Origin: an uncultured Ruminiclostridium sp. | GTDB taxonomy: Bacteria > Bacillota > Clostridia > Oscillospirales > Ruminococcaceae | DNA length: 39,844 nucleotides | Assembly (NCBI GenBank): GCA_949878745.1 | Contig: CATLBH010000025.1 | Coordinates: 1 to 39,844, forward strand | Direction: 5' to 3' | Part shown: positions 1,852 to 36,344 of the stretch, piece by piece | Numbering within the stretch: position 1 is the first letter of the stretch | How the letters are laid out: each line of letters begins with the position of its first letter | The notes under the pieces: generated by a model | Seen by the model: only the letters and a program-made list of their open reading frames with translations | What the model was told of the DNA's origin: nothing | Database searches by the model: none | Translations under genes and position numbers: made by a program

Positions 1852-2127
1852 TACTGATTTTTAGAACCTGTCCACATAGGAATGGTGCGTGGATTTTCGA
1901 GCAGATTTTGTCGAGGACAAGGCGAAATTTCTTGACTTGCTGTCGCAAGTCAAGAAATTTTAACGCAATCATCGGCAAAATCTGCCGAAAAGACGCGTGC
2001 CAATTCCTATGTGGACAGGTTCTTAATCAATCTGTTGACAAACAGATTGATTAAAAATTACACCCAAAGCACTATTTGCAAATCATTACAAATTTTATTT
2101 TGTCTATATTATGATTTGCAAATAGTA
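1852..2127 (+). repeat. Two-hairpin TTA element, copy 1 (interrupted by another element)
   Basis: Left hairpin, linker ACACCCAAAGCACT, then right hairpin with arms CTATTTGCAAAT and ATTTGCAAATAG, ending AGTA followed by TTA. The left hairpin arm is split by a 159-bp palindrome at 1864-2022. Without it the arms GATTTTTAATC and GATTAAAAATT pair. The left flank is ATA rather than TTA, so the outer duplication is imperfect in this copy. The same left and right types recur at 10317-10430. Confidence 0.8.
1864..2022. mobile_element. 159-bp palindromic MITE-like insertion
   Basis: The ends are perfect 20-bp inverted repeats (GAACCTGTCCACATAGGAAT). Inside them are partly paired arms around GCAGATTTTG, and the centre is a perfect 16-bp stem (AAATTTCTTGACTTGC) with a TGTC loop. 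It is flanked by TTA at 1861-1863 and 2023-2025, a 3-bp target duplication. It codes for nothing. Such TNA/TWA duplications are known for IS5-type (IS1031 group) and PIF/Harbinger-type elements, but which transposase moves this one is not visible here. Confidence 0.8.
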
Positions 2128-2161
2128 TTACTATTAAAATTGTAATATTATTTAACACAAA

Positions 2162-2196
2162 ACAGCGTATAGGGGATATTCCGATACGCTGTTTTT
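2162..2196. terminator. Intrinsic terminator after the solute-binding gene
   Basis: ACAGCGTAT pairs with ATACGCTGT and is followed by TTTTT on the plus strand. The minus strand has a short T-run too, so it may also serve the minus-strand gene ending at 2214. Confidence 0.7.
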
Positions 2197-2213
2197 ATTT
2201 GCGAAAATATTTT

Positions 2214-2513
2214 TCAGTATAAATGAAAATCGGTATTGTCGTTTTTTTGCTCCCTGTTTTCTTTTCTTACCGTTATCCTCCGAAAGCGCATACCGCGTCC
2301 GTAGCGAATGGCGGCGATCATCAGAACCAGTCCCGATATGGCAAAAAAATCGGTAAGCTTAAAGCCGCACACCGCGTTGACCCCCACCAACAGAGCCGAC
2401 GCCGCCGTTACGCCGCCGACAAACTCGATAACCTCAAGAAATTTAACCTTTTTATCGCTTAACAGCACTGCAACGGCACTCATCGCCAAGAGGGCGGATA
2501 TAACAACAAACAT
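2214..2513 (-). CDS. Small hypothetical membrane protein
   Basis: I do not recognise this 99-residue protein. It has three likely membrane helices (about residues 2-19, 31-49 and 57-70), then a basic and finally polar tail. The start at 2513 is chosen because AAGGAG lies 11 bases upstream. A longer reading from 2591 would begin inside the repeat element at 2561-2651 and is unlikely. There is no operon partner: the transporter gene at 2798 is separated from it by a terminator and that repeat. It could be a small integral membrane protein of no known function. Confidence 0.5.
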   Translation of the reverse strand: MFVVISALLAMSAVAVLLSDKKVKFLEVIEFVGGVTAASALLVGVNAVCGFKLTDFFAISGLVLMIAAIRYGRGMRFRRITVRKENREQKNDNTDFHLY

Positions 2514-2560
2514 TTTACGATCATCTCCTTCAACGGCATTGCGTCGTTTTTTTATTTTAT

Positions 2561-2651
2561 ACCAATCCCTTTTTAAACTGACGAAATACACACAGTTTAA
2601 AAAGGGATTGCACCCAAAGCGCTAATCCAACAGTTTATAAAGGGATTAGTA
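2561..2651 (+). repeat. Two-hairpin TTA element, copy 2
   Basis: The left hairpin has arms CAATCCCTTTTTAAACTG and CAGTTTAAAAAGGGATTG around an ACGAAATACACA loop. It is followed by linker CACCCAAAGCGCT and a short right hairpin (CTAATCC/GGATTAG). TTA flanks both sides (2558-2560 and 2652-2654). Near-identical copies are at 10434, 11397 and 28481. Confidence 0.85.
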
Positions 2652-2731
2652 TTACGACTGTATTGTACCACAAAAAGGCGACGGGGTTCAATAGATATAT
2701 GTACGTTTTATTGGACAGATAATTTTTAGAC

Positions 2732-2780
2732 AAAAAACCGTATGCGGGGAAATTGTAAAAGCTTCGCATACGGTTTTTTT
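2732..2780 (-). terminator. Bidirectional terminator of the FNT transporter gene
   Basis: ACCGTATGCG (2737-2746) pairs with CGCATACGGT (2765-2774), with an A-run on the left and a T-run on the right, so it can end transcripts on either strand. It lies directly after the minus-strand gene ending at 2798. Confidence 0.75.
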
Positions 2781-2797
2781 ATGTTATATTTTATTAT

Positions 2798-3409
2798 TCA
2801 GCCTTCTTTTTTTACGGTAAGCCATCGTACAGTCAAAGCGCCTATGCCGTTAAACACCGACACAACAATCAAAAAAGCCATATAGCTCAAAGCCTCGCTT
2901 ACGCTTTCCACCGCCAGCGCCGCGTAGCACATATCGGCAATGCTGTGCTCGAAGCCGCAAAGGATAAAAACGGATACGCAGAGAAAAAGACCCGTTACCT
3001 TTCCGAAACCGTGAGGATTGGCGCGATAGTTTTCCACCGCCAGATACATAAGTGCTCCGCAAAAAAAAGCCAGAATGGGCACATAGGCATAGCTGAGGCT
3101 CATTTTCGCTTCCATCATCGACCTTGCCGCGGTGTGAAGGGAGGGTTTGGCAATACGCGCCAGAGCCATTCCCCCCGAAGCCCCCAAAAGGTTTCCCAGC
3201 CATATCAAAAGGCAGTTGGGCTTGTTTTTATTGGCGAGGACATAGCCGATTTTTCCGGTAAAAAGATTCATTCCGAAAGCGCAGACGGCAAACAGCCCCA
3301 CCGTAAACAGCAGAGCCCCCACCGTTTTGTTTTCGCAGCTTATGTATATCACCGCGCCGATTCCTATCGCAAATCCCGCCGCTATCGCTTTTTTAAAGGT
3401 TTCCGCCAT
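2798..3409 (-). CDS. Formate/nitrite transporter (FNT) family channel
   Basis: A pentameric-type membrane channel for small monovalent anions such as formate or nitrite. The signature regions are visible: the NLFTGKIGY segment in the first third (family motif LFTGN) and GFEHSIADM late in the protein, whose His is the central pore histidine of the family. Six hydrophobic segments can be counted, so it is complete although short at 203 residues (family usually about 250-285) because the loops are compact. The start at 3409 is chosen over 3421 because GGAG is too close to the latter. It is transcribed alone from the promoter at 3448-3476. No nitrite reductase or formate lyase gene is adjacent, so the substrate is unknown. 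Confidence 0.8.
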   Translation of the reverse strand: MAETFKKAIAAGFAIGIGAVIYISCENKTVGALLFTVGLFAVCAFGMNLFTGKIGYVLANKNKPNCLLIWLGNLLGASGGMALARIAKPSLHTAARSMMEAKMSLSYAYVPILAFFCGALMYLAVENYRANPHGFGKVTGLFLCVSVFILCGFEHSIADMCYAALAVESVSEALSYMAFLIVVSVFNGIGALTVRWLTVKKEG

Positions 3410-3447
3410 ATCAAGACACATCTCCGTTTAAAATTTCAGTATGAATA

Positions 3448-3476
3448 ATTGTAACATTTTTGAAATAAAAAAACAA
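3448..3476 (-). promoter_or_regulatory. Sigma-A-type promoter for the FNT gene
   Basis: On the minus strand TTGTTT is separated by 17 bases from TACAAT, about 40 bases upstream of the chosen start. Confidence 0.55.
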
Positions 3477-3520
3477 TGGCAAAAAGGTTGATTTTTTGTT
3501 GAAAAAAAGCGGATTTTCTA

Positions 3521-3549
3521 TTGAATTTCACTTGCGTTTATGTTAAAAT
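3521..3549 (+). promoter_or_regulatory. Sigma-A-type promoter for the DUF2871 gene
   Basis: TTGAAT and TAAAAT with a 17-base spacer, about 90 bases upstream of the gene start, divergent from the FNT promoter. Confidence 0.6.
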
Positions 3550-3640
3550 GATAACAATATACGGGATAGGTTCTTTTGGAATGACAAACTTAATATATTT
3601 TTTATATATTTTTTGAGCAATCTGTGAGGAGGAGATAATT

Positions 3641-4060
3641 ATGTGTAAGCGTTACGCGAATCTTGCTTTTATCTATGCCATAGCCGCTATGGCGTTCGGC
3701 GTGTTCTACCGTGAGTTCACGAAATTTACGGGTTTTACGGGAGACACAAGGCTTTCTGTAATCCACACGCACTATTTTCTTTTGGGAATGGCGTTTTTTC
3801 TGATACTTATGCTTATAGAAAAAAATTTCGTCTTTTCGGAGGAAAAGAACGTGGGAAGGTTTATTCTTACATATAATGTGGGGCTGAACATTACCACCGT
3901 GGGGTTTTTGATTAGGGGGCTTGTTCAGGTGCTGGTAAATAATCCCGAAAAGGGGCTTGACGCTTCCGTTTCGGGGATTGCGGGGATCGGGCATATTGTT
4001 ATGGGGGTTAGTTTGGGGGTTATTTTGTTTAAAATTAGGAGGGCGGTTAAAGATAAGTGA
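3641..4060 (+). CDS. DUF2871 family membrane protein
   Basis: A 139-residue membrane protein of the uncharacterised DUF2871 family. The family pattern is visible: FGVFYREFTKFTGFTG near residues 19-34 followed by an HTHYFLLGM segment containing two histidines in a membrane context. Four hydrophobic helices can be seen. The arrangement recalls small heme- or quinone-linked four-helix membrane proteins, but this is only a resemblance. GGAGGAG just upstream supports the start. It is divergent from the FNT gene and has its own promoter. The function of the family is not known. Confidence 0.75.
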   Translation: MCKRYANLAFIYAIAAMAFGVFYREFTKFTGFTGDTRLSVIHTHYFLLGMAFFLILMLIEKNFVFSEEKNVGRFILTYNVGLNITTVGFLIRGLVQVLVNNPEKGLDASVSGIAGIGHIVMGVSLGVILFKIRRAVKDK

Positions 4061-4249
4061 GCGTTTCTAAAAAAGTTAAAACATCTTTATGAAAGCGCAT
4101 TGAAGTTTCCGTCCTGAGAACGGCGCTATGCGTTCTTCTCTTACCCTTCTTCAAATGGCGGTGGGTTTCCAAAGGGCAACGCCTTTTGGCCGCCCTACGC
4201 AGAGGGCGAAATTCCCCACGCTTAGCGCCGCTCGGAAAGGGGTGAATTG

Positions 4250-4275
4250 AAAAACAGTCCGCCGGACTGTTTTTT
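4250..4275 (+). terminator. Terminator-like hairpin
   Basis: CAGTCC-GCC-GGACTG preceded by five A and followed by six T, so it can work in both directions. It is about 190 bases downstream of the DUF2871 gene. Confidence 0.65.
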
Positions 4276-4324
4276 AAGATGGGAAGCCCTCTCTTGCAGT
4301 ACTTCCCTTGTTTTGGCAATCACC

Positions 4325-4364
4325 CGTTACCCTTCGGGGTTATCCCCGAAAGGTAACGATTTTT
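4325..4364 (+). terminator. Second strong hairpin
   Basis: CGTTACC and TTCGGGG pair with CCCCGAA and GGTAACG across a four-base loop with one mismatch. ATTTTT follows. Confidence 0.5.
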
Positions 4365-4385
4365 GGCGCTAAAGCTCCAATAAAA

Positions 4386-4418
4386 ACAAAAGCGGCTGCG
4401 AAAAACAGCCGCTTTTGT
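4386..4418 (-). terminator. Terminator of the GGGtGRT/NifU-like operon
   Basis: ACAAAAGCGGCTG pairs with CAGCCGCTTTTGT, 13 bases past the stop codon of the minus-strand gene ending at 4432. On that strand the stem is followed by a TTTTGTTTTTA tract. Confidence 0.8.
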
Positions 4419-4431
4419 AATACGTTATTAT

Positions 4432-5430
4432 TTACTTGTTGGCTTCTTCAACCGCAACCGCGCAGGCTACGGTAGCGCCTACCATAGGATTGTTGCCCAT
4501 TCCGATAAGTCCCATCATCTCAACGTGAGCGGGAACGGAGGAAGAACCGGCAAACTGAGCGTCGCCGTGCATTCTGCCCATGGAGTCGGTCAAACCGTAG
4601 GATGCGGGACCCGCCGCAACGTTATCGGGGTGGAGGGTACGTCCCGTACCGCCGCCCGAAGCCACGGAGAAGTACTTCTTTCCGTTTTCGATAGCCCACT
4701 TCTTATAGGTGCCCGCTACAAGGTGCTGGAATCTGGTGGGGTTGGTGGAGTTACCGGTAATGGAAACCTCAACGCCCTCCATTCTCATAATGGCAACGCC
4801 TTCGGTAACGTCGTTGGCACCGAAGCAGCGTACCTTCGCCTTGTCGCCGTCGGAGAAAGCGACCTCGCGTACAACGGTAAGCTTATCGTTGGAAATATCG
4901 TAATCGGTTTCAACATATGTAAAGCCGTTGATTCTGGAAATAATATAAGCCGCGTCCTTGCCCAGGCCGTTGAGGATAACTCTCAAAGGCTCTTTTCTCG
5001 CTTTGTTGGCGGTTCTCGCAATACCGATTGCGCCTTCGGCGGCGGCAAAGGATTCATGACCCGCAAGGAAGCAGAAGCACTTTGTGTCCTCCTCCAGCAG
5101 CATTTTGCCTAAATTGCCGTGACCTAAGCCAACCTTTCTGTTTTCCGCAACGGAGCCGGGAACACAGAAAGCCTGAAGTCCCTCGCCGATAGCGGCAGCA
5201 GCGTCGGAGGCCTTTGTTATGCCCTTCTTAAGAGCAATGGCGGTACCGAGGGTATAAGCCCAGACGGCGTTTTCAAAAGCGATGGGCTGAACGCCCTTTA
5301 CGATCTCCTCAACGTTGATGCCCTTGGAAAGGCAGAGATCTCTTGCTTCTTCGATCTCCTTCATACCTAAGGACGCAAGACACGCGTTCACTTTGTCGGC
5401 GCGTCTTTCCTGACCTTCATATTTAGCCAT
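4432..5430 (-). CDS. GGGtGRT family protein
   Basis: A 332-residue member of the GGGtGRT family, named for the glycine-rich motif seen here as SGGGTGRTLHPDN around residues 255-267. The C-terminal part is glycine- and methionine-rich (SYGLTDSMGRMHGD, GLIGMGNNPMVG). The family is cytoplasmic and its biochemical role is unknown to me. It is regularly found next to a NifU-like scaffold gene, as here, where the partner ends 20 bases upstream. An AAAGGAG site precedes the start. The pair shares the promoter at 6197-6225 and the terminator at 4386-4418, forming a two-gene operon. A link to iron-sulfur or sulfur metabolism is an inference from the partner only. Confidence 0.85.
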   Translation of the reverse strand: MAKYEGQERRADKVNACLASLGMKEIEEARDLCLSKGINVEEIVKGVQPIAFENAVWAYTLGTAIALKKGITKASDAAAAIGEGLQAFCVPGSVAENRKVGLGHGNLGKMLLEEDTKCFCFLAGHESFAAAEGAIGIARTANKARKEPLRVILNGLGKDAAYIISRINGFTYVETDYDISNDKLTVVREVAFSDGDKAKVRCFGANDVTEGVAIMRMEGVEVSITGNSTNPTRFQHLVAGTYKKWAIENGKKYFSVASGGGTGRTLHPDNVAAGPASYGLTDSMGRMHGDAQFAGSSSVPAHVEMMGLIGMGNNPMVGATVACAVAVEEANK

Positions 5431-5450
5431 ATTCTTTCTCTCCTTTCCTG

Positions 5451-6146
5451 TTATTCTTCACGGGGGTCAATTTTCTTGACCGCTTCGTCGTATCTGCCGT
5501 ACTGTCCCAGATTGGCTTTATATGCCTCGTCGGGAGTCTTTCCGTGGCGAATATCCTCAAGCATCTTTCCGATCTTTACAAACTGATATCCGATAACTTC
5601 GCCGTTGGCGTCAAGGCCCAAAGAGGTTATGTAGCCCTCCGCCATTTCCATATAGCGAACGCCCTTCGCCTTGGTGGAGAAGATGGTGCCCACCTGTGAA
5701 CGGAGACCCTTGCCCAGATCCTCGAGACCCGCGCCGATGGGAAGGCCGTTTTCGGAGAAGGCAGTCTGTGTACGTCCGTAAACGATCTGTAAGAACAGCT
5801 CTCTCATGGCAACGTTAATGGCGTCGCATACCAGGTCGGTGTTGAGCGCCTCCAGCAGCGTTTTTCCGGGAAGAATTTCCGCGGCCATGGCGGCGGAGTG
5901 AGTCATACCGGAGCAGCCGAGGGTTTCCACCAGAGCCTCCTCGATAATACCATCCTTAACGTTGAGGGTGAGCTTACAGGTACCCTGCTGCGGTGCGCAC
6001 CAGCCCACGCCGTGTGTAAGGCCGCTGATGTCGGCGATCTGATAGGGCTTTACCCACTTGCCTTCTTCGGGAATGGGCGCGGGGCCGTGCTTGGGACCCT
6101 TGGCGACAACGCACATTTTCTCAACTTCATGTGAGTAGTTAATCAT
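5451..6146 (-). CDS. NifU-like iron-sulfur scaffold-type protein, partner of GGGtGRT
   Basis: A 231-residue protein related to the NifU/IscU N-terminal scaffold fold. Candidate metal-binding cysteines are Cys50 and Cys57 (GWCAPQQGTC) and Cys78 (LGCSGMTHSAA). The GCSGMTHS segment corresponds to the cysteine-containing turn of U-type scaffolds. It is longer than IscU/SufU (about 130-150 residues), with a distinct C-terminal extension. It is the first gene of the operon with the GGGtGRT protein. AAAGGAG precedes the start. The suf genes of this window (14351-16012) are about 8 kb away and contain no SufU, so this protein could supply a scaffold, but nothing in the sequence proves that. Confidence 0.75.
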   Translation of the reverse strand: MINYSHEVEKMCVVAKGPKHGPAPIPEEGKWVKPYQIADISGLTHGVGWCAPQQGTCKLTLNVKDGIIEEALVETLGCSGMTHSAAMAAEILPGKTLLEALNTDLVCDAINVAMRELFLQIVYGRTQTAFSENGLPIGAGLEDLGKGLRSQVGTIFSTKAKGVRYMEMAEGYITSLGLDANGEVIGYQFVKIGKMLEDIRHGKTPDEAYKANLGQYGRYDEAVKKIDPREE

Positions 6147-6196
6147 GCTTTAAACTCCTTTCGGGTAATTTATGTTAATTTTTTTAACCTTGTATT

Positions 6197-6225
6197 ATTA
6201 TACCAAAATTGGGCGATGATTTCAA
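6197..6225 (-). promoter_or_regulatory. Strong promoter for the NifU-like/GGGtGRT operon
   Basis: On the minus strand TTGAAA, a 17-base spacer and a perfect TATAAT lie about 50 bases upstream of the NifU-like start. Confidence 0.75.
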
Positions 6226-6293
6226 GGGATTTGTTAAAAAAAGAGTTTTTTGGGGGCAGATTTTTGAAAAGTGCGGAAACGTTAGAATTGCTC

Positions 6294-7094
6294 TTATAAA
6301 TTCAGAATTTCAAACAATTTATCCTTGGATTGTTTCGCGCACTCTACCGGTCTGACTTCAAAGTTCATATATGTATTTTCGTTGAAAAACGGTTTAAACA
6401 ATGAAAAATCCACATAGCCCTCGCCGACGTTTTGATGGGAACCGAAGGTACCGTTTTTATCGTGAATATGTATTTCTCTTATGCGGTCGCTGTATTTTTG
6501 ATAAAAGGCAAAATCCTCTTCATTTATTTTTTTGTTTGAAATATACATTTTGGCAGTGTCAAGAGTAAGGTATATTTTTTCATTTTCATTTATTAAACGC
6601 CGGATCACACGTCTCGCAATATCGTCAAGGCTGTCGTTTTCCACGCACACCAATACATCTCCGCTTGACTTTATCAATGTTTTAAGGTTTTCATAAAGAA
6701 CCGTTTCGTAATGCTCGGCATAAAAGGGCTTGGTTTTTTCGCCGCTTTTCTTGAATTTCGAATAAACTCCCGTGTGAAAGGTCATGTGTCTTGCGCCGAT
6801 AATATTGGCTTTTTCAAGCATAAGCTTAAATTCGTCAAGGATTCCTTGGCGAATCAGAGGGTAATCGCTGAAAAGGCTTGTATTGTCTCCCGGAGAGTGA
6901 AAGGTTATTTCAACGGCGTTGTCGGCTGCATATTTTTTTATTTCAAGGAGATTTTCGGTTGTTAATTCGTTCAGAAAATAGGCGGGGACACCTAAATCGA
7001 ACTGCGCGAAATCAAAAGCGTGTTTTTTGGCGTCGGCTATGCCGTTGAAATAGGTTTTGGAATATATTGAGTGGTAGCCTGTTTTTATGTTCAT
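6294..7094 (-). CDS. TIM-barrel sugar phosphate isomerase/epimerase-like protein
   Basis: A 266-residue protein of the xylose-isomerase-like TIM-barrel superfamily (AP endonuclease 2 fold). Its metal- and substrate-binding positions appear in order: FHSPG, MTFHTG, VCVEND, LDTAKMY, IHIHDKNG with a following SHQNVGEG, and NFEVRP near the C-terminus. These supply the His, Glu and Asp residues expected for a divalent-metal site. Members isomerise or epimerise sugars or act on DNA; the GEGYVDF region favours a sugar-type enzyme. It is a single gene with an AAAGGAG site. The substrate cannot be told from the sequence. Confidence 0.7.
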   Translation of the reverse strand: MNIKTGYHSIYSKTYFNGIADAKKHAFDFAQFDLGVPAYFLNELTTENLLEIKKYAADNAVEITFHSPGDNTSLFSDYPLIRQGILDEFKLMLEKANIIGARHMTFHTGVYSKFKKSGEKTKPFYAEHYETVLYENLKTLIKSSGDVLVCVENDSLDDIARRVIRRLINENEKIYLTLDTAKMYISNKKINEEDFAFYQKYSDRIREIHIHDKNGTFGSHQNVGEGYVDFSLFKPFFNENTYMNFEVRPVECAKQSKDKLFEILNL

Positions 7095-7154
7095 AATGGG
7101 GCTCCTTTTTATAATGGGTTGTTTATTGCACCGGGTGTGCGGGGGTGCTACCGT

Positions 7155-7525
7155 AGGGGGTGGTTTGGTGTTAGAGCTGCTTGCCGCAGTGGGGGGTTAT
7201 CTAAAGTTGATTCCTTTATGTGATGTTTTATTTAATGCACGGGTCGTGCAGGGCCGCTCCCGCGGGGGGCTTAAGGTGACACCAAAGGGGGGAGAAGGTG
7301 AACAGACTACGCAGTGTTGGATTTTATTATAATGTCAATTGTTTTTAGTAGAAATGTACCGGTTCGGCGTAGTCTGTCCCCCACTCTCCCCCCCTTAGGT
7401 TTCACCTTAAGAATCCCTTCCTTACCCCCCCTCTGGACGTTTTATTGTCAATATAGGTTTCACTCTCATAAAAGCTGTTCCGATGAGTGCTATTAACGTA
7501 TGTTTGGTTTTGCTATTTAGTTTTT
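7155..7525 (-). repeat. Repeat family S, copy A
   Basis: About 370 bases closely matching 36655-37025 in inverted orientation. It carries a long internal inverted repeat: the arm around CTTAAGGTGACACC (from 7270) faces GGTTTCACCTTAAG (ending near 7407). Inside it AGACTACGC (7304-7312) pairs with GCGTAGTCT (7367-7375). In the other copy the same place holds AGGCTTCGC and GCGAAGCCT. The loop between the arms differs completely between copies. No protein is encoded. Confidence 0.8.
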
Positions 7526-7674
7526 TCCTTTATATAACTGCTCCCATAACTGCTTTTTCGTCCAATAATGTTGATGTCCCATCGGTTATTGCCGATGATT
7601 GCGTACCCGTGAAAAACTTTGTTTTTGTCTTGCGTGTCAAACTCCGCAAACCGTTCCATCAATTAAAACCGTCC

Positions 7675-7812
7675 CTACACCGATAACTGCCCAACAGCGG
7701 GGGGCGCAGCCCAAATTTTCCGTTAGGAAAATTTGGCGACGCTCCGCATTCGCTTCGCGTCGGCTCACTCCGCCTTCGGCTCCGTTCGCGGCTGCGCCGC
7801 CGCCAATTCCCC
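7675..7812 (+). repeat. GC-rich repeat family T, copy 1
   Basis: Contains AAATTTTCC-GTTA-GGAAAATTT and nearby GC-rich blocks (GGGCGCAGCC, CTGCGCCGCC). A related copy lies in inverted orientation at about 11262-11392, on the other side of the methionine synthase genes. Confidence 0.6.
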
Positions 7813-7879
7813 CTACTTTAGTTTCTCCTTAAAAATCCCAATCTCCCCCATTAAATTACCCCTAACCTTTATTCCCCAA

Positions 7880-10267: not shown

Positions 10268-10316
10268 TTTTCGTTTCCTTCCAAGCTTGTAAAGTCGTTT
10301 TTTTGAACAGGTTCTA

Positions 10317-10430
10317 TACTGATTGTTAATCGTTCTGTTGACAAACAGATTGATTAACAATCACACCCAAAGCGCTATTTGCAAATCATTCCAAATTTCA
10401 TTTTGTTTATAGTATGATTTGAAAATAGTA
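10317..10430 (+). repeat. Two-hairpin TTA element, copy 3 (first of a tandem pair)
   Basis: The left hairpin pairs GATTGTTAATC with GATTAACAATC around CTGTTGACAAACAG. Linker CACCCAAAGCGCT follows, then a right hairpin with arms CTATTTGCAAATCAT and ATGATTTGAAAATAG and loop motif TTGTTTATA. It ends AGTA then TTA at 10431-10433. The left flank is CTA. Same type as 1852-2127 without the nested insertion. Confidence 0.8.
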
Positions 10431-10433
10431 TTA

Positions 10434-10525
10434 TACCAATCCCTTTTTAAATTGCCGAAATACACACAGTTTAAAAAGGGATTGCACCCAAAGCACTAAT
10501 CCAACAGTTTTAAAAGGGATTAGTA
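10434..10525 (+). repeat. Two-hairpin TTA element, copy 4 (second of the tandem pair)
   Basis: Same type as 2561-2651. It begins right after the TTA (10431-10433) that ends the previous element, so the two share one TTA. The right TTA (10526-10528) is also the stop codon of the methionine synthase activation gene read on the minus strand. Confidence 0.85.
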
Positions 10526-11206: not shown

Positions 11207-11261
11207 TTCGGTGTAAGCCTTTCTTTTCTGGGGGAATTTTTTGTGTTTAAGTGTAGGGTTG

Positions 11262-11392: not shown

Positions 11393-11396
11393 TTTA

Positions 11397-11486
11397 CTAG
11401 TCCCTTTTAAAACTGTTGGATTAGTGCTTTGAGTGCAATCCTTTTTTAAACTGTGTGTATTTCGTCAGTTTAAAAAGGGATTGGTA
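11397..11486 (-). repeat. Two-hairpin TTA element, copy 5
   Basis: Minus-strand copy of the type at 2561-2651, with linker CACTCAAAGCACT on that strand. TTA is present on both sides (11394-11396 and 11487-11489). One terminal base has been lost at the left end. Confidence 0.85.
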
Positions 11487-11518
11487 TTAACTGATGAGGC
11501 GCGTAATCGAACGAGTTA

Positions 11519-11630
11519 TACTAATCTTTAATCATATTGTAGACGAAGTCGGAAATATGATTAAAGATTACACCTAAAACACTAATCTTTGGTCAACATT
11601 TTTTGTCTATAATCTGACCAAAGATTAGCA
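11519..11630 (+). repeat. Two-hairpin TTA element, copy 6
   Basis: The left hairpin has arms AATCTTTAATCATAT and ATATGATTAAAGATT around a loop with GTAGAC. Linker ACACCTAAAACACT follows. The right hairpin has arms CTAATCTTTGGTC and GACCAAAGATTAG with loop motif TTGTCTATA (11603-11611). TTA flanks both sides (11516-11518 and 11631-11633). Confidence 0.85.
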
Positions 11631-16151: not shown

Positions 16152-16202
16152 TACTAATCTTTGGTCAACATTTTTTGTCTATAATCTGACCAAAGATTAG
16201 TA
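16152..16202 (+). repeat. Single-hairpin TTA element
   Basis: A 51-base element with arms TACTAATCTTTGGTC and GACCAAAGATTAGTA, loop motif TTGTCTATA (16175-16183), and TTA on both sides (16149-16151 and 16203-16205). It equals the right-hand hairpin of the element at 11519-11630 standing alone, showing that one hairpin is a complete inserted unit. It lies between the divergent suf and metF promoters. Confidence 0.85.
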
Positions 16203-22603: not shown

Positions 22604-22646
22604 TACTATTTGCAAATAGTGCTTTGTGTGTGATTTTTAATCAATA
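22604..22646 (-). repeat. Shortened TTA element
   Basis: A 43-base derivative flanked by TTA on both sides (22601-22603 and 22647-22649). On the minus strand it keeps one arm of the left hairpin (GATTAAAAATC), linker CACACAAAGCACT, and a right hairpin reduced to CTATTTGCAAATAG without a loop. It looks like the 1852 or 10317 type after internal deletions. Confidence 0.7.
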
Positions 22647-22650
22647 TTAG

Positions 22651-22691: not shown

Positions 22692-22817
22692 CAAAGAGGC
22701 AAAATGCAAGGTAATGCAGACAAAAAACGGTTGCTTTTTCTCTTGCCGTGCGGTACCGAAGCGCTATTTTCAAATTATCCACTAAATTATCCAATCTTTT
22801 TAATTTGAAAAATAGTA
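22692..22817 (+). repeat. Divergent two-hairpin TTA element
   Basis: The right part is clear: CGAAGCGCT (linker remnant) followed by arms CTATTTTCAAATTA and TAATTTGAAAAATAG and the end AGTA. A weaker left hairpin (CAAAGAG...CTCTTG) begins directly after a TTA at 22689-22691. The right flank is TAA rather than TTA. The left half is a tentative assignment. Confidence 0.5.
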
Positions 22818-27354: not shown

Positions 27355-27356
27355 AA

Positions 27357-27498: not shown

Positions 27499-27510
27499 TT
27501 TAACCAGTGG

Positions 27511-27562
27511 CAGCGGGACTTTGTCCCACACCCTACTTCCTTTTTGGAACCCAAAAAGGAAG
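27511..27562 (+). repeat. Hairpins with covarying stem (partner of 24294-24353)
   Basis: GGGAC-TTT-GTCCC, then CTTCCTTTTTGG (27536-27547) pairing with CCAAAAAGGAAG (27551-27562). Compared with 24327-24353, two positions differ in each arm and both changes are compensated. Confidence 0.65.
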
Positions 27563-27622
27563 CGAAAAAAGTAATCCGCGGCTTCGCCGCTTTTTTAGTT
27601 TTTTACATACCCATATCAGCGG

Positions 27623-28447: not shown

Positions 28448-28480
28448 TTTCTCGCTCCTGTCACGCCCGTTGCGGGTTTA

Positions 28481-28572
28481 TACTAATCCCTTTTAAAACT
28501 GTTGGATTAGCGCTTTGGGTGCAATCCCTTTTTAAACTGTGTGTATTTCGTCATTTTAAAAAGGGATTGGTA
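28481..28572 (-). repeat. Two-hairpin TTA element, copy 7
   Basis: Minus-strand copy of the 2561-2651 type, with linker CACCCAAAGCGCT on that strand. TTA flanks both sides (28478-28480 and 28573-28575). It lies in the upstream region of the AraC gene. Confidence 0.85.
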
Positions 28573-28575
28573 TTA

Positions 28576-28880
28576 TACTGTCTCAAATTAAAAAGATTGC
28601 AAAAATTCACGGATAATCCGGGAATAATACACAATTTCATTATACAGCTTAAACCGAATAAAATCAATATTAATGTAAAAAAAAGCGCTTTTTACATCAT
28701 ATTCGGTATAAAATTTTGCATTTTGTCAAAAAAATTAAATTTCGGACAAAATACCTATAATAAGAATTATACCGTTCATAAAATATGCTTTTATAAAGTA
28801 AAAAAGCGTAATAAGTGAAAAAAATCAGACTGTTTAAAATAAAAAAATATAAAAAAATTGGTGAAATACGGAAAAAAAGG
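28576..28880. other. AT-rich gene-free stretch
   Basis: Very AT-rich, with no supported gene, repeat or hairpin. It leads into the promoter of the candidate small RNA. Confidence 0.5.
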
Positions 28881-28909
28881 TTGACTTTTATAAGACAACA
28901 AGGTATAAT
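28881..28909 (+). promoter_or_regulatory. Near-consensus promoter of a candidate small RNA
   Basis: TTGACT, exactly 17 bases, then perfect TATAAT, pointing to a gap that ends in a terminator about 110 bases on. Confidence 0.75.
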
Positions 28910-28915
28910 TCTTAT

Positions 28916-29021
28916 TATATGAAGTTAGAACAAAAATTTTTTACTCAGAAAGCGAAATATATTTTCTGGAATTTTTTTTGACACAAAAAACAGACTGCGC
29001 CGATACGCAGTCTGTTTTTTT
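28916..29021 (+). ncRNA. Candidate small RNA (about 105 nt) or leaderless micro-peptide transcript
   Basis: Defined by the promoter at 28881-28909 and the intrinsic terminator at 28985-29021; no annotated-type gene lies between them. The first bases after the predicted start include ATG at 28919, which opens a 20-codon frame (starting MKLEQKFFTQ) with no ribosome binding site and ending in TGA. If transcribed, it is either a short regulatory RNA or a leaderless mRNA for a tiny peptide. It runs head-on toward the 3' end of the aminotransferase gene but stops in the shared terminator. No family match was recognised. Confidence 0.5.
28985..29021. terminator. Strong bidirectional terminator
   Basis: CAGACTGCG (28991-28999) pairs with CGCAGTCTG (29006-29014), with six A before and seven T after. 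It serves the minus-strand aminotransferase and the plus-strand small-RNA candidate. Confidence 0.9.
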
Positions 29022-29036
29022 ACAGTATAGGGACGA

Positions 29037-30317: not shown

Positions 30318-30422
30318 TTTTCCGACCGTTCCTTTCTTTTATTATAAATTTTGAACATAAACATTACAAATTATTCAGATACGCCGCCCGTTTTTCGAAC
30401 GTTTTCTTTATTCACTTTATCT

Positions 30423-30451
30423 ATTATATTTCAAATCGCGCAAAAATGCAA
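30423..30451 (-). promoter_or_regulatory. Promoter of the aminotransferase gene
   Basis: On the minus strand TTGCAT, 17 bases, perfect TATAAT, about 105 bases upstream of the start, leaving a leader of roughly 100 bases. Confidence 0.7.
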
Positions 30452-30654
30452 GTTGTTTTTTTAATTCTTGCAAAATCAATTAAGTAATTTGTAGGTAAAT
30501 TCAAAAAAGGACAAAAATTTTTTTCTTTTTTAGCGAAAAACACTATGATTTTTTCGCGGTCATTGCTCCCAAAAAAGAAAAATTTCCCACCCTACGATAG
30601 GAAATTCATACAAATTATGAAATTCCCGTTCGGAGGGCGGGAAATAGAAAATAA
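30452..30654. other. Gene-free spacer with weak inverted repeats
   Basis: AT-rich. A nested pair of small inverted repeats (AATTTCC/GGAAATT, and TTCCCG with CGGGAA) lies at about 30585-30650. No gene is supported. Confidence 0.4.
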
Positions 30655-30657
30655 TTA

Positions 30658-30861
30658 TACCAATCTTTAACCAAGTTGTAGACTTGAACAAAGATTAGGG
30701 CTTATTTGAAAAATCGGAAACGTCGTCTTTTCGCCCCCAAACGGTCATCTTCTGCGTCAAAAAGCCTCGTCAAACGACGGTATGACTGCGTTTTTTCCTT
30801 GAAGCTAACCATTTGGGGTCAAAAATCCGTCATTTTCTCTATTTTCAAACAAGCCTTAGTA
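30658..30861 (+). repeat. Enlarged TTA element with a 160-base palindromic right half
   Basis: The left hairpin has arms AATCTTTAACCAAGT and ACTTGAACAAAGATT with a GTAGAC loop, like 11519 and 36242. The right half is a long imperfect palindrome: GGCTTATTTGAAAAAT faces ATTTTCAAACAAGCC, and inside it CCCCAAACGGT faces ACCATTTGGGG. The usual linker is missing. TTA is at 30655-30657 and 30862-30864; the right one is the stop codon of rmuC. Confidence 0.75.
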
Positions 30862-32250
30862 TTACTCTTCGTCTTCCAGCAGCTTAAGGCTCCCGGTTTC
30901 TCCTAACTCTTCCACGCTGCGAAGCGCTCTGTTAATCTGACGCGTTCTTACTCCCACTATCTTTTCGAGAGTTTCGTCAGCGGTTTGTATTTGCTTATGA
31001 GCAGTGGAGAGCACTTTTTCAAATTCGCCGAACTGCTTCTTTACCGCCCTCAGAATATCCCAGACCTCCTGAGAACGCTGTTCTATGGCAAGGGTTTTGA
31101 ACCCGATTTGTAGGGAGGATAAAAACGCGGACAGAGTGGCCGCCCCCACCGCGGTCACCTTGTATTTGTTCCTGAGCTCCTCAAAGAGCGGTGCGTTTTG
31201 AACCACCTCGGCGTAAAGCCCTTCGGTGGGCAGGAACATCAGGGCGAAATCGGTGGTTTTCGGGGGCAAAATATACTTATCGGAAATCTCCTTGGCGAAG
31301 GAACGTATCTTTGCCGCCAGAGACTTCCGCGCTTCTTCGATGGCGGCTTTGTCCTCCGCGTCAAGAAGACGGTTGTAATCTTCGATGGGAAACTTGCTGT
31401 CTATTGGAAGCAAAAGGGGACTGTCGCCGTTTCCGGGAAGCTTTACGACAAACTCCACCCGCTTTCCTCCCGCTATCTCCGCGTTGGTTTCGTATTGGGA
31501 GGGGGCTAAAATATCCGAAAGAAGCTTTTCAAGCCGCACTTCTCCGTAGGTGCCCCGTTCCTTTACGTTGGTGAGGGCATTTTTAAGGCTTTTGGCATCA
31601 GCGGCCAGGGCTTTCATTTCCCCTAACCCCTGTCCCACGCTTTCAAGCTGTTTGCTCACCAGCTCAAAGGATTGGGCGAGGCGGGTTTCAAGGGTTTTCT
31701 GAAGCTTTTCGTCAACCACTCCCTGCATCTGTTCAAGCCGTTTTTCGTTGCTTTCCTGGAGTGACTTCATTTTGTTTTCGAGAGTGACGTTGATTTTTTC
31801 TATGTTTTCCGCGTTGCCCCTTTGAATGGAGGAAAGACGGCCGTCCAGCTGCTCCTGAAATTCTCTTAGGCGAAGGTTGATCTCGTTTCGGCTTTCCTGA
31901 AGGGTTTTGTTGGTTTCGGTGCGGCTGGATTTAAGCGTTTCGCTCAGCTGCTGTCCGTTGGCGGAAAGGCGGCCGTCCAGCTGTTCGCGGAACTCCCGCA
32001 GACGGAGGTTTACCTCCTCACGATTGCCCTGTAAGGTGGACTGAACGCTTTCCTGTATCACGCCGAAACGCTTAAATTGCTCCGTGGCTCCCTCCGAAAT
32101 CTGTTTGGCAACACTGTCCCGCTGTTCCTCCGCCTGAGTGCGCAGCAAAGAAGAAATACGGCTCGTATCGGAGGTGCGCCTTCCCGTTAGCTGTATGATT
32201 ATGACGGCTAAAAGAAGAACTATTATAACAATGCCCAGTGCGATTTCCAT
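30862..32250 (-). CDS. rmuC: RmuC-family DNA recombination protein
   Basis: A 462-residue protein of the RmuC family, linked in E. coli to limiting recombination at inverted repeats. It has an N-terminal membrane helix (about 3-22), a long coiled coil (about 30-210) with three similar LREFxEQLDGRLS units, and the nuclease-like RmuC domain (about 220-440: RGTYGEVRLEKLL, LPIDSKFPIEDYNRL, FLPTEGLYAEVVQ). AAAGGA precedes the start. Third gene after cdaA and cdaR, 42 bases behind cdaR. Its TAA stop is the TTA flank of a palindromic element, which is notable given the family's link to inverted repeats, although this may be chance. Confidence 0.88.
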   Translation of the reverse strand: MEIALGIVIIVLLLAVIIIQLTGRRTSDTSRISSLLRTQAEEQRDSVAKQISEGATEQFKRFGVIQESVQSTLQGNREEVNLRLREFREQLDGRLSANGQQLSETLKSSRTETNKTLQESRNEINLRLREFQEQLDGRLSSIQRGNAENIEKINVTLENKMKSLQESNEKRLEQMQGVVDEKLQKTLETRLAQSFELVSKQLESVGQGLGEMKALAADAKSLKNALTNVKERGTYGEVRLEKLLSDILAPSQYETNAEIAGGKRVEFVVKLPGNGDSPLLLPIDSKFPIEDYNRLLDAEDKAAIEEARKSLAAKIRSFAKEISDKYILPPKTTDFALMFLPTEGLYAEVVQNAPLFEELRNKYKVTAVGAATLSAFLSSLQIGFKTLAIEQRSQEVWDILRAVKKQFGEFEKVLSTAHKQIQTADETLEKIVGVRTRQINRALRSVEELGETGSLKLLEDEE

Positions 32251-32292
32251 ATTTATTTTGTCCTTTCGGGGATACTTTCGCGGATATTGCGA

Positions 32293-33579
32293 TTATTCCG
32301 TCTCGTTGGGGGGACTTTTTTCGCTGATCCTTATGTCCACCTTATAGTCTCCCGCGATCCACGCCTTTCTGTACTGCCCCGAAACTCTCACGGCGACAGT
32401 GATGTTTCTTACTCCCGGATCCATCTGTATTCCCAAAAGATTAACGGTTCCGAAAATATCGTCCGAGGAAAGGTTTTTGACGATATCCGAGGGGCCAACC
32501 GCCATAACGTCTATCTGACTGGTAACAATGGAATAATCGTAGGCGGGGTCGCCGTTAAGTATTGTGAAGTGGGAGGTGGAAACGGGGAATTCCAGGTTTC
32601 CGTAGCTGTCAATATTCTCGAAGGTCACCTGAGCTATACCTATGCCCGAAAGGTTCTTATAGCCGTCGGTAAGAGAAATGGGAAGCTTGATTCCGCCCAG
32701 ATCCCTGGCGGTGATGTCTGTGAGGTCGATTTCTCCCACGTCTATCCTTTCAAGGTTCTCGATGCTGGCGTCCCCTGCCGGAGCGGCTATGGTTATCTCT
32801 TGGGGGAAGATTTTATATTTTAAGCTGTCTGCGTCAAAGGTCTGAGGATAAATAAAGGAAACGTTGAGGGGGAGAGTTTTCACTCTGTAAACGGGTATGG
32901 TTACGGTATAATTATCCGCCTGATACTCCAGCTCGCCGGTTTGTATCCTTGTGTTTTCGGCGTCGTAAAGGGAAAGAGTTCCGTTAAGCCGCATGGTTTC
33001 CGTCAGAACGCCGTCAAATTCGGGTTCTATCACCGCTTTCGCCACCGAGTTGACCAGCGACTGTTCGCCCGTTATTAAGACGGCAGGGGAGGAAACGCTT
33101 ATATCACTCTCCTGTATCTGAAGCTCGTCGCCCACGTTAAGGGAATCTATGTTTACCTCGGGGACAAACTCCTTTGAAATGATACGTTCCACTTCAATGG
33201 AGGCGGTGAGGTTTTTGGTGGTTATCTCGAAATCGGAATTCGGCTGGAGCATATTGACGTTTACGTTGACTATATGCTTTCCCGGAGAGGTGATTTCCGA
33301 CAGATCCAGGGTGGCGGTGAAGTCGTCGGCGGAAAGGGTGCCTATTACGTAGCGCTTTCCCATTATCTGAACGGAAACCTCCTGCTGAAAATCGATTATG
33401 CGGAGGTTTTCCTGCTGCATATAACCGGTGGGCTCGGCGATAACTTTAATGCCGTCCACATGGTCGTGTTCGTTGGGGAATACCTGTATCGACACGGCGA
33501 ACCAGATAATAACCGCAAAGACTACCGCCAATATCAGCGTTTTTAAATTATTCACAAAGAAATTCGGCATTTTTTTCAT
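32293..33579 (-). CDS. cdaR: CdaR (YbbR-domain) regulator of diadenylate cyclase
   Basis: A membrane-anchored extracellular partner of CdaA that modulates cyclic-di-AMP synthesis. The 428-residue protein has one N-terminal membrane helix (about 12-31, LILAVVFAVIIWFAVSIQ) followed by four YbbR-like beta domains of about 85-95 residues, recognisable from repeated V-x-V-x-G/ID-x-S strands and the VQIMGKRYVIGTLSADDF pattern. An AAGGAA site lies 10 bases upstream. It follows cdaA by 32 bases. In many Bacillota glmM comes next; here rmuC does. Confidence 0.88.
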   Translation of the reverse strand: MKKMPNFFVNNLKTLILAVVFAVIIWFAVSIQVFPNEHDHVDGIKVIAEPTGYMQQENLRIIDFQQEVSVQIMGKRYVIGTLSADDFTATLDLSEITSPGKHIVNVNVNMLQPNSDFEITTKNLTASIEVERIISKEFVPEVNIDSLNVGDELQIQESDISVSSPAVLITGEQSLVNSVAKAVIEPEFDGVLTETMRLNGTLSLYDAENTRIQTGELEYQADNYTVTIPVYRVKTLPLNVSFIYPQTFDADSLKYKIFPQEITIAAPAGDASIENLERIDVGEIDLTDITARDLGGIKLPISLTDGYKNLSGIGIAQVTFENIDSYGNLEFPVSTSHFTILNGDPAYDYSIVTSQIDVMAVGPSDIVKNLSSDDIFGTVNLLGIQMDPGVRNITVAVRVSGQYRKAWIAGDYKVDIRISEKSPPNETE

Positions 33580-33611
33580 TTTATATTTTTCCTTATTGCC
33601 CGTAAAGATGA

Positions 33612-34490
33612 TTAAATCTCGGTGTCAGCTTTGTTTTTATCGCGGTTCTTTTTTCCGCTCTTGCTTTTTTTTGTATTCTCGCCGGTTTCGGGAATAAGTC
33701 TCTCGGTGAGATATTTCCTGAGAGTCACGCCCGAAAAGTTCCTTGTGAGCTTACCGTTTTCCGCGATGGAAATAACGCCCGTTTCCTCGGACACCACCAC
33801 CACAATGGCGTCCGACACCTCGCTCATACCTATGGCGGCGCGGTGCCTGGTGCCCAATTCCTTGGGGACAAGCTCCTCCTTGGCGGGCTTGGGGAGATAA
33901 CAGGCGGCGGCGTGTATAAGGCCGTTTCTGATTATTACCGCCCCGTCGTGAAGCGGCGTGTTGGGAACGAAAATGTTTCCGAAAAGCTCCGCGCTGGGCT
34001 CCGCGTTAATATAGGTGCCTGTTTCTATCTGCTCGCCCAGCTTGGTCTGGCGCTCTATTACGATAAGCGCGCCGGTCATTGTACGGGAGAGGTTTTCACA
34101 AGCTTTCACAATACTGTTGATGGCTTTGTTGTCCTTTTCGATCTCCGCTGAGCCGGCGCCTTCGAGAAAGGGAAGCTTTTTTGACATTCCCGTGGTGCGT
34201 CCCACCTTTTCCAGTATTCGCCGAAGCTCCGGCTGGAACATTATGATTACCGCCAGTATACCTATGTTCACAAAGGTTTCGGCGATAACTCCCATCACCT
34301 TGAACTGCATCTGATCCAGAATAAACAATATCACGCCCAACAGCACAATTCCCTTGATAAGCTGTTCCGCTCTTGTTTCTCTCATCAGTTTTATTCCCAG
34401 AAACAAAATTACCGAGAGAAAAATAATGTCGAATATATCTATTATCGTAATATAGCTTATAACGCTTTTAATATTTTCCAGAATATCCAT
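33612..34490 (-). CDS. cdaA: CdaA diadenylate cyclase
   Basis: Makes cyclic-di-AMP, which controls potassium and osmolyte balance and cell-wall homeostasis. Three N-terminal membrane helices (about 12-90) precede the DAC domain. Its active-site motifs are DGA (Asp182, in HDGAVIIRNG) and RHR (Arg215-Arg217, in GTRHRAAIG), both intact. Length 293 residues, slightly more than B. subtilis CdaA because of a lysine-rich C-terminal tail. The start at 34490 is the ATG giving the usual N-terminus; no good ribosome binding site is seen, and a TTG start at 34505 is an alternative. First gene of cdaA-cdaR-rmuC. Confidence 0.92.
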   Translation of the reverse strand: MDILENIKSVISYITIIDIFDIIFLSVILFLGIKLMRETRAEQLIKGIVLLGVILFILDQMQFKVMGVIAETFVNIGILAVIIMFQPELRRILEKVGRTTGMSKKLPFLEGAGSAEIEKDNKAINSIVKACENLSRTMTGALIVIERQTKLGEQIETGTYINAEPSAELFGNIFVPNTPLHDGAVIIRNGLIHAAACYLPKPAKEELVPKELGTRHRAAIGMSEVSDAIVVVVSEETGVISIAENGKLTRNFSGVTLRKYLTERLIPETGENTKKSKSGKKNRDKNKADTEI

Positions 34491-34567
34491 TAAATAGGCA
34501 ATCAAACCAAAACACCCACTTTATCGTATATGTATTTTCCGAAAACACGGATAATTGTCTGAGTATA

Positions 34568-34596
34568 ATTTTAGCACAATCGGTGAATGTTTGCAA
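34568..34596 (-). promoter_or_regulatory. Promoter of the cdaA-cdaR-rmuC operon
   Basis: On the minus strand TTGCAA, 17 bases, TAAAAT, giving a leader of about 70 bases before cdaA. Confidence 0.65.
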
Positions 34597-34682
34597 TAGC
34601 TTTTAAAATTTTTTTATCAATATTTGAATAATGCGGCCGTAAAAAATCAATTCATTTTTTCGCTTCCTTTAAATAAACCGCC

Positions 34683-34711
34683 TTGCAATAATACCGAAAA
34701 TGTGATATAAT
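34683..34711 (+). promoter_or_regulatory. Promoter of the SGNH lipoprotein gene
   Basis: TTGCAA, 17 bases, perfect TATAAT, about 48 bases before the start at 34760. Confidence 0.7.
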
Positions 34712-34759
34712 ACATTTATTATCGGTTCAATTAACGGTAAACCTTACGGAGGAATGAAA

Positions 34760-36175
34760 ATGAAAAAAAGAAAAATAACGGCACTCCTGTTAGCGTCAGC
34801 GCTTTTAATGACCGCTGCGGGCTGCGCCGGAGACGGCTCAAACTCCAATAACAACGGCGAAACCGCCACCACAACCTCGTCGGAAAACAACTCAGCCGGT
34901 GCCACCAATCAAGAGGAAACCGGAAACGGCGGCGGAGAAAACAAAACTCCCGCCGACATCGGAGTGATTTTCGACAGCGAGACCCCTCCCACCGTGGGAA
35001 GCAACGACGATTTCTCCTACGCCGACGGCGCCGAAGAATCGGAGTATAAATTGGGCGGAGCTTTAACCGACAGAATGGTTGCTCTTTCCGAACTTAACAC
35101 GGGGAATCAAGCGAGACTGGCAGGAGCTATGAAGAAAGCGGCGGCGGGTGAAGCCGTAACCGTAGCTTACATAGGCGGCTCGATAACACAGGGCTCCAGC
35201 GCGGGGGACAGCGGCTGCTACGCAAGGCTTGTGACCGACTGGTTCGAGGAAACTTATCCCGATTCCGCGATAAATTACGTCCGCGCGGGAATAGGGGCCA
35301 CAGGCTCTTATATCGGGGTGCACAGGGTTCAAAGGGACGTGCTTGACAACGACCCCGACATAGTTTTTGTGGAATTTTCCGTTAACGATACCACCGAAGA
35401 CACCATGCGAAACGTCAACAGCTACGACAGCCTTCTGCGGAAAATCTGGAACGCCGAAAGCGCTCCCGCTATAGTTTGCATAGGTATGACCCAGGACAGC
35501 GGAATCTCTTTCCAGAATTATCATTCAGACATAGCCAAGAGCTATGATCTTCCCTTTATTTCTTACAGAAATGCCATTCTTGATGTTATTGACGAGGGTT
35601 ATATAAAGTGGACGGATATTTCCGATGACAATATTCACCCCAATACTCAAGGACACAAGGTGCTGGCTCAAATTGTTACCCATTATTTAGCCTCGGTAAA
35701 TGAAAATAAGGACAATATCACGGGAGCGGAAAGCGATTTCTCAACTCCCTACACCAAGGATAAATTTGCCGACGCGGATCTTATTACCCCCGCCAACAGC
35801 GACGCTTCCGACCCCTCCGGCAAAATCACCGCCAAGGCGGACAACAATTTCGGCAACTTCATGGGCTGCTGGACCGCCAGAGGCTCCAATCTTTTTGACG
35901 GCGAAAACACCTGTCTTGTCTTTGAAAACGTGGAAGCAAAGAACATAGGCCTGCTGTTCGGTAAAGTAACTGGCGGCGGCACGGTGCTGGACATATACAT
36001 TGACGACGTACTTGTGAACAGCGTCGACACCCGTTTCCCCGGAGGCTGGGGCAACTATGCCGAGGCGGCGGAGATAGCTTCTTTTGCCGAAAAGGGCACT
36101 CACACCGTAAGGATCGTTCCTCAGAATATCGAGGGAGCTTCGCTAATTTATATAAGCGGGCTGTTGGTTAGCTGA
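34760..36175 (+). CDS. SGNH/GDSL-type hydrolase lipoprotein
   Basis: A predicted surface-bound esterase, perhaps deacetylating polysaccharide or glycan. The lipobox TAAGC (Cys22) is followed by a Ser/Thr/Asn-rich linker (about 24-80). The SGNH core starts with IGGSITQG (nucleophile Ser141), has a glycine block (RAGIGATGSYIG), the Asn block (FSVNDTTED) and the final HPNTQGH motif with the Asp/His pair, so the catalytic set is complete. A C-terminal beta-sandwich (about 340-471) could bind carbohydrate. The start at 34760 is chosen because GGAGG is 7 bases away; the ATG at 34754 is too close. Single gene. Confidence 0.82.
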   Translation: MKKRKITALLLASALLMTAAGCAGDGSNSNNNGETATTTSSENNSAGATNQEETGNGGGENKTPADIGVIFDSETPPTVGSNDDFSYADGAEESEYKLGGALTDRMVALSELNTGNQARLAGAMKKAAAGEAVTVAYIGGSITQGSSAGDSGCYARLVTDWFEETYPDSAINYVRAGIGATGSYIGVHRVQRDVLDNDPDIVFVEFSVNDTTEDTMRNVNSYDSLLRKIWNAESAPAIVCIGMTQDSGISFQNYHSDIAKSYDLPFISYRNAILDVIDEGYIKWTDISDDNIHPNTQGHKVLAQIVTHYLASVNENKDNITGAESDFSTPYTKDKFADADLITPANSDASDPSGKITAKADNNFGNFMGCWTARGSNLFDGENTCLVFENVEAKNIGLLFGKVTGGGTVLDIYIDDVLVNSVDTRFPGGWGNYAEAAEIASFAEKGTHTVRIVPQNIEGASLIYISGLLVS

Positions 36176-36241
36176 TGTTTTCGGGTTTTGCGGTTTAAAA
36201 TTTCGGGAGCATTGCGAGTGCTGTTCGGGCGGTGTTTTTTA

Positions 36242-36344
36242 TACCAATCTTTAATCAAGTCGTAGACTTGATTAAAGATTGCACCCCAAACACTAATCTT
36301 TGATCCTCCTTTTTACTTGTCTATAATTCGATCAAAGATTAGTA
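36242..36344 (+). repeat. Two-hairpin TTA element, copy 8
   Basis: The left hairpin pairs CAATCTTTAATCAAGT with ACTTGATTAAAGATTG around CGTAG. Linker CACCCCAAACACT follows. The right hairpin has arms CTAATCTTTGATC and GATCAAAGATTAG with loop motif TTGTCTATA (36317-36325). TTA flanks both sides (36239-36241 and 36345-36347). Confidence 0.85.

Follow-up and report, generated by a model that had tools for sequence, protein, structure and literature searches.

Prokaryotic miniature inverted-repeat transposable elements (MITEs) are, according to the available portion of one account (PMC10969869), short, noncoding, AT-rich, and foldable sequences with terminal inverted repeats and flanking direct repeats, present in many copies and located between genes. 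The family described here, which recurs throughout a window of 39,844 nucleotides (the whole stretch of DNA analyzed; contig CATLBH010000025.1 of assembly GCA_949878745.1, positions 1 to 39,844) from an uncultured Ruminiclostridium sp., shares these properties but differs in that each end is a complete hairpin, a nearly constant 13-nucleotide linker lies between the two hairpins, and the stems differ between subfamilies. Bacterial interspersed mosaic elements (BIMEs) and the repetitive extragenic palindromes (REP) are also alike in having two palindromic units joined by a linker and in being mosaic and intergenic, but the double-hairpin family has a clear TNA duplication and exact outer ends. 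Tourist-like MITEs carry a 3-bp AT-rich duplication, as this family does. So do the PIF/Harbinger and IS5-related transposons, with TWA given for PIF/Harbinger and TNA for NuwaII (both eukaryotic groups), although no transposase is linked to the double-hairpin ends and the part of the source available makes no mention of a double-hairpin layout (PMC4482050). The initial annotation of the window knew of no named family with this layout, and we found none in the literature searched, coverage of which was partial. We regard these repeats as probably short, nonautonomous, MITE-like DNA transposons that insert into TNA and are mobilized in trans, with palindromic ends kept matched by template switching, selection on the fold, or both, and with a conserved linker.

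A high-copy family of double-hairpin repeats

The repeats have two hairpins with a nearly invariant 13-letter linker between them; the tips and the linker are kept, and the stem letters are swapped in matched pairs. Two-hairpin copies are mostly 91 to 125 bp and have no coding capacity, and only one of 121 lies inside an open reading frame of at least 90 codons. The linker CACCCAAAGCRCT has 52 matches in the 2.67-Mb genome and its reversed pattern has none, and the pattern TTATACYAATC(N8)A gives 99 matches versus 0 for the reversed control; with all 13 places in the window read individually, the modular two-hairpin family first noticed there is confirmed. The tip with a TNA flank occurs 523 times genome-wide compared with 135 in the control, suggesting about 190 elements, single hairpins included, and a covariance model gives at least 150 matches in the same genome. 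Well over a hundred sites in this bacterium and in certain relatives now carry the repeat.

The material in which copies were delimited comprised the window, 96 stretches fetched from the own genome, and loci in other genomes. There were 284 linker-like places, of which 177 passed a stem test and 174 without N were used for counting non-Watson-Crick pairs; 121 copies with both ends entered the flank analysis, and copies with identical cores were merged. The linker is present with no more than two mismatches in 90 of the 92 TNA-flanked elements of at least 85 bp (67 with no mismatch; the remaining two are nested insertions), a test only partly free of ascertainment, as both linker patterns and tip patterns had been used to fetch the loci. 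Both ends of 217 distinct flanked elements are dominated by TACYAAT tips. DNA folding of six strands of four copies gives z scores of −5.75 to −11.22, with no shuffle as good. This is a genuine high-copy mobile double-hairpin family, with a linker and register that are unusually constant against the turnover of the stems.

Target duplication and empty sites

Identical 3-bp flanks border 101 of the 121 full-length two-hairpin copies, and all are TNA (61 TTA, 33 TAA, 6 TCA, and 1 TGA); the middle base agrees in 101 of the 109 copies with TNA on both sides. The outer ends are exact (TAC...GTA), and the outer stem pairs in 86.3% of cells. The TTA target duplication described initially is thus real as a 3-bp duplication, with TNA rather than TTA alone as the target. 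Joined flanks minus one triplet match uninterrupted repeats elsewhere, constituting paralogous empty sites; examples are locus L039, which matches window positions 30738 to 30808 with 97% identity over 71 nucleotides, and L034, the joined flanks of which match many sibling copies. There is also a clean orthologous empty site: the copy at L116 in one metagenome-assembled genome (MAG; JAAVIG) is absent from L119 in the MAG of another species (JAAVIF), with 86% identity over 527 bp and a single TAA. Two other pairs were not counted, L084/L180 because the "empty" side keeps ATCAGTATTA and is thus probably a deleted copy, and L075/L112 because it is too diverged. Short, noncoding, and present in many copies, with terminal inverted repeats, a target duplication, and empty sites, the family is mobile, nonautonomous, and MITE-like.

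The hairpin-rich, mosaic, intergenic, and high-copy character of the repeats would also suit elements of the REP/BIME or IS200/IS605 kind, which an HUH enzyme mobilizes in single-stranded form. To our knowledge, elements of those types make no target duplication, and the TNA duplication with its agreeing middle base, together with empty sites holding one triplet, makes such an origin very unlikely.

Covariation and stem types

An alignment of 60 copies covers the main stem types; in it, 95.4% of 1,679 cells are paired under the two-hairpin structure, compared with 83.0% for a fold with an outer stem and an inner hairpin, which was set aside. Changes on both sides are seen in 21 of the 30 pairs, with 358 two-sided cells compared with 121.6 in shuffled alignments and no more than 120 when partners were slid; further pair types (39) are no more numerous than in shuffles (40.5). 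The stems remain self-complementary, as first claimed. Within the A type there are 22 compensated cells of 11 kinds, against maxima of 7 and 6 in 2,000 permutations. RNAalifold on 66 A-type copies finds 5 of 18 pairs changed on both sides, with a covariation term of only −0.28 kcal/mol; it is thus the comparison between types that yields the strong signal. Overall, the interpretation given in the initial annotation is borne out in part, by many copies, covariation well above controls, a constant linker, and empty sites with a single target triplet.

Left and right stem types are nearly always inherited together (A-a in 113 copies, B/C-b in 24, D-d in 12, and E-e in 8). The own genome has two crossed copies, L095 and L166, both incomplete, and clean-looking crosses are seen only in other genomes (L142, L214, and L256). 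The initial idea of stem types exchanged in different pairings holds only weakly: the pairings in the window are A-a, B-b, C-b, and D-d, and the stems are not freely exchangeable. Strict clustering sorts 44 distinct left arms into 7 types at no more than 7 of 11 identical positions, all with one linker, although it merged or missed long, bulged, or related types (D, B/C, L231, and L142). There are at least seven clearly different left stems by clustering, and about a dozen by eye, on the same linker. With tips, linker, and register constant and stem letters turning over in matched pairs, the family offers natural data that can help to tell apart template switching and selection on the fold as causes of compensatory change in palindromes.

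Orientation and base pairing

Covariation around a constant single-stranded linker is also what a structured RNA might show, with the repeats transcribed, the two hairpins and linker acting as RNA, and the pairing selected in that form. The placement of the 121 copies relative to neighboring genes shows no strand preference, with 33 versus 32 codirectional in opposite senses, 18 convergent, and 15 divergent (22 of the 121 copies had no neighbor on one side in the stretch and were left out). Non-Watson-Crick combinations occupy 97 of 2,088 cells, 24 of them G-T and 16 A-C, so there is no significant RNA-like excess of G-T and no sign of G-U tolerance. No Rfam family reaches its gathering score in the window, with chance-level matches below it in a 1,361-base part, and the precise 3-bp duplication is found at every kind of site. 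With no strand preference, no significant G-T excess, and no Rfam match, a strand-specific RNA role is unlikely, and we consider it very improbable that the family is a structured RNA element.

Bipartite ends and related elements

Comparison of stem types points to a second constant feature: behind the tip TACYAAT, after a run of variable letters, TAGACAAA starts at nucleotide 21 or 22. Among the 217 distinct flanked elements, the TAGACA start lies at position 22 in 74 of 94 occurrences and at position 21 in 18 (92 of 94 together). Searched as a prediction in six genomes, the bipartite pattern gives 118 matches versus 0 for the reversed control, with matches in four of the six. In a sample of 394 genomes of the order it is found 84 times in the own genome, 47 times in G002, and 4 times in G449; four single matches (in G094, G446, G580, and G751) are at background level, as 13 genomes there have one reversed-control match. 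A slightly wider pattern has 83 matches versus 0 in G002. The bipartite end is established for some stem types as well as related families of other genera, and the rule (tip, fixed spacing, inner motif) recognizes relatives there that differ in sequence. The spacing may reflect contact by a protein some two helical turns inward of the tip.

In G002 and G300 the related elements have long inverted repeats, and a 164-bp form in G449 has one hairpin close to either end. The elements of G002, from another genus of the family, fall into at least two classes; they are about 100 to 290 bp long, are in some cases nested (loci L274 to L346), share the tip and inner motif, and are without the two-hairpin layout. 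We also note a lone end, TACTAAT...TATAGACAAA, in G300 (contig C1, from position 231; L233), about 150 bases before a gene whose product we take to be a YchF-like GTPase, with a promoter-like TATAAT between; it may be what remains of an element, serving as a promoter region.

Proposed mechanism and alternatives

The mechanism that we favor would begin with insertion into TNA, duplicating those 3 bp, by a DDE transposase supplied in trans; the TNA target suggests one of an IS5/PIF-Harbinger-like kind. The transposase would read the tip and the inner motif about two helical turns apart, leaving the spacer, which makes up most of the stem, free to drift. Each end would be doubled into a palindrome, and template switching from arm to arm as the DNA is replicated would be the main cause of the match between arms, possibly helped by selection for an extruded hairpin. 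The linker would be a further cis site that copies need to spread (an unusual internal requirement for a MITE, if it proves to be so), and single-hairpin forms would arise at least in part by internal deletion between the four similar arms. In the available portions of two reports, template switching between the arms of short inverted repeats is said to homogenize the arms and invert their spacers (PMC8604942) and to produce, in RNA genes, both compensatory changes and inverted loops (PMC8794818). An exactly inverted loop is present in two copies, L032 and L090, which share one site in another repeat and constitute one lineage; a third apparent inversion, in L034, is a neighboring copy and not a real inversion.

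Several observations weigh against this scheme. The A type, the commonest of all, and the E type are without the inner motif, and 41 one-sided stem changes persist in A-type copies. Loop inversions are rare: the two copies at one site are the only real ones among the 106 A loops classified, the 73 loops of other types include none, and frequent template switching might be expected to give more. Single hairpins without the linker are also TNA flanked; unless all of them arose by deletion, this makes a need for the linker in movement less likely. The duplications of bacterial IS5 itself are given as ANT in the part of the comparison source available (PMC4482050). Finally, no autonomous element with these ends was found at the PF01609, PF13340, and end-motif loci of the genomes searched, although MAGs lose multicopy elements.

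In another reading the mobile element is the same, but its pairing is maintained chiefly because an extruded DNA hairpin (cruciform or single stranded) recognized by the mobilizing enzyme is under selection, rather than by template switching. In keeping with this, stems that clearly differ remain paired, with tips and linker retained, and loop orientation is kept in all but the two real cases. We nonetheless think it unlikely, given the reported capacity of template switching to homogenize arms and invert spacers and the inversion lineage seen here, the persistence of the 41 unpaired changes, and the long imperfect inverted repeats, rather than two separate hairpins, of the related G002 elements. 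What the initial annotation suggested, selection for a folded form of the DNA or RNA, is only one possible reading: the strand and G-T data speak against its RNA part, and template switching can also match the arms. Quite improbable, in our estimate, is a transposition machinery guided by shape more than by the sequence of the stems. Its substrate would be two extruded DNA hairpins presenting a constant linker, and it would make a DDE-type 3-bp duplication from folded DNA; stems could then be replaced, with the fold, the tips, the linker, and, in part, the loop motif retained.

The shared site lies inside another repeat family (aacacacgatgtgTTA|TTAgtcatttgccc) and is occupied at L032, L053, L066, L087, L090, and L095, with lengths of 92, 91, 73, 64, and 54 bp plus a 52-bp single hairpin. 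Five of the six copies are A type, and L095 is a b-type single hairpin. The sizes suggest a natural series of rearrangements in which copies were remodeled where they lay, one route by which single hairpins could arise; the b type of L095 nonetheless indicates that a second insertion at that site also occurs, and remodeling in place is only presumed.

Search for an autonomous partner

For the trans-mobilized transposons that we favor, the TNA target fits the PIF/Harbinger-IS5 kind, and we do not claim membership. The IS1031 subgroup of IS5 has a TNA target. IS5-type transposases in the own genome carry other ends, and four candidate partners were rejected: L183 has TACTAAT on one side only; at L260 (G297, contig C31) the transposase follows GGCATTGTTTG inserted at TTAG beside a copy; the ends of the L178 element are AGAACCTGTACCAATA; and L233 is the lone end before the YchF-like gene.

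Distribution among genomes

A scan of species genomes gives at least 58 matching stretches; among the matches listed, 55 are in four MAGs, two of Oscillospiraceae bacterium (JAAVIF and JAAVIG) and two of uncultured Clostridia bacterium (CANDLP and CANEHP), and three are chance matches. Linker-pattern matches in Bacillus, Pseudalkalibacillus, and Cytophagaceae records (L132, L141, and L143) are without the ends. The exact core pattern is present in 1 of 297 genomes of a family sample, the own one. With the covariance model applied to nine genomes and up to 150 of the best candidates scored in each, the own genome has at least 150 matches, G297 143, G298 136, G299 72, and G300 12, whereas within the same genus G015 has 4 and three other genomes have none; these counts may include weak reverse-strand matches of one copy. 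Under strict filters, with nine candidates per genome, 3 of 396 genomes of a family sample have a match. This patchy distribution fits a mobile element. G298 has many 112-bp copies of equal score right where contigs begin, which points to one subfamily having multiplied recently and interrupted the assembly.

The core pattern has no matches in viral contigs, one A-type copy has no match in plasmids, and one C-type copy has none in phages. Eleven matches of the end pattern in viral contigs have no fitting partner end (one has an unrelated end 1,363 bases on) and are taken as chance.

Copies in the window

The window contains seven uninterrupted two-hairpin copies, one split two-hairpin copy, two single-hairpin forms (one split), and three remnants. 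Covariance model R1 marks nine of the 13 listed sites at an E value of ≤0.001, where seven of the nine rows come from copies and four of those copies are also in the R1 training alignment. Four of the uninterrupted copies are A type and are identified by reading and model match: 2560 to 2651 (+), with TTA flanks also seen in the flank analysis; 10434 to 10525 (+), with TTA flanks and support from folding; 11395 to 11486 (−), with TAA on the left and AAA on the right, the duplication being lost or decayed; and 28481 to 28572 (−), with TAA flanks on its own strand. The other three are further supported by folding. The D-type copy at 10317 to 10430 (+) adjoins the A-type copy at 10434 and has CTA on its left and TTA on its right; the C-type copy at 11519 to 11630 (+) has TTA flanks, the linker CACCTAAAACACT, and a right tip of GCA rather than GTA; and the B-type copy at 36242 to 36344 (+) has TTA flanks and the linker CACCCCAAACACT.

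Two copies initially listed with these have a different structure. The first, a D-type two-hairpin copy spanning 1852 to 2127 (+; model match 2014 to 2127), is in two parts (1852 to 1863 and 2026 to 2127), split by an unrelated 159-bp repeat at 1864 to 2022 with TTA on both sides. The other, at 30658 to 30861 (+), reads as a single-hairpin form (B left hairpin), not a two-hairpin copy, and is split by an unrelated repeat at 30699 to 30855 that duplicated TTAG. The single-hairpin form noted at 16152 occupies 16152 to 16202 (51 bp; strand not assigned), with a b right hairpin, complete tips, TTA flanks, and a model match.

The remnants are identified by reading. Of the two shortened forms originally described, that at 22604 to 22650 (−) is indeed a D-type remnant with the linker CACACAAAGCACT and shortened hairpins, while the form quoted at 22692 is an E-type right-hairpin remnant at about 22754 to 22817 (+). 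The end fragment placed at 37050 lies within 37048 to 37061 (+), a right end GTTTGAAAATAGTA followed by TTA.

Other repeat families

The repeat at 1864 to 2022 that splits the copy at 1852 belongs to a second family, with ends GAACCTGTCC. An IS5-type element in the own genome (L178; G000, contig C4, about 1145 to 1990), with Pfam DDE_Tnp_1 and DUF4096 and with the AGAACCTGTACCAATA ends, may be its partner. The repeat at 30699 to 30855 represents a third family, which begins GGCTTRTTTGAAAA and duplicates TTAG; at L260, from about position 1430, a transposase fragment at the contig end follows GGCATTGTTTGAAAA, which is similar to the third-family end. A fourth family, with ends GGAACCRCTGATTAAA, is present in the window at about 117 (−) and at L185 (G000, contig C4, 20434 to 21400). 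It inserts at CTAA or TTAG, often in double-hairpin ends and once just past the linker, with CTAA duplicated.

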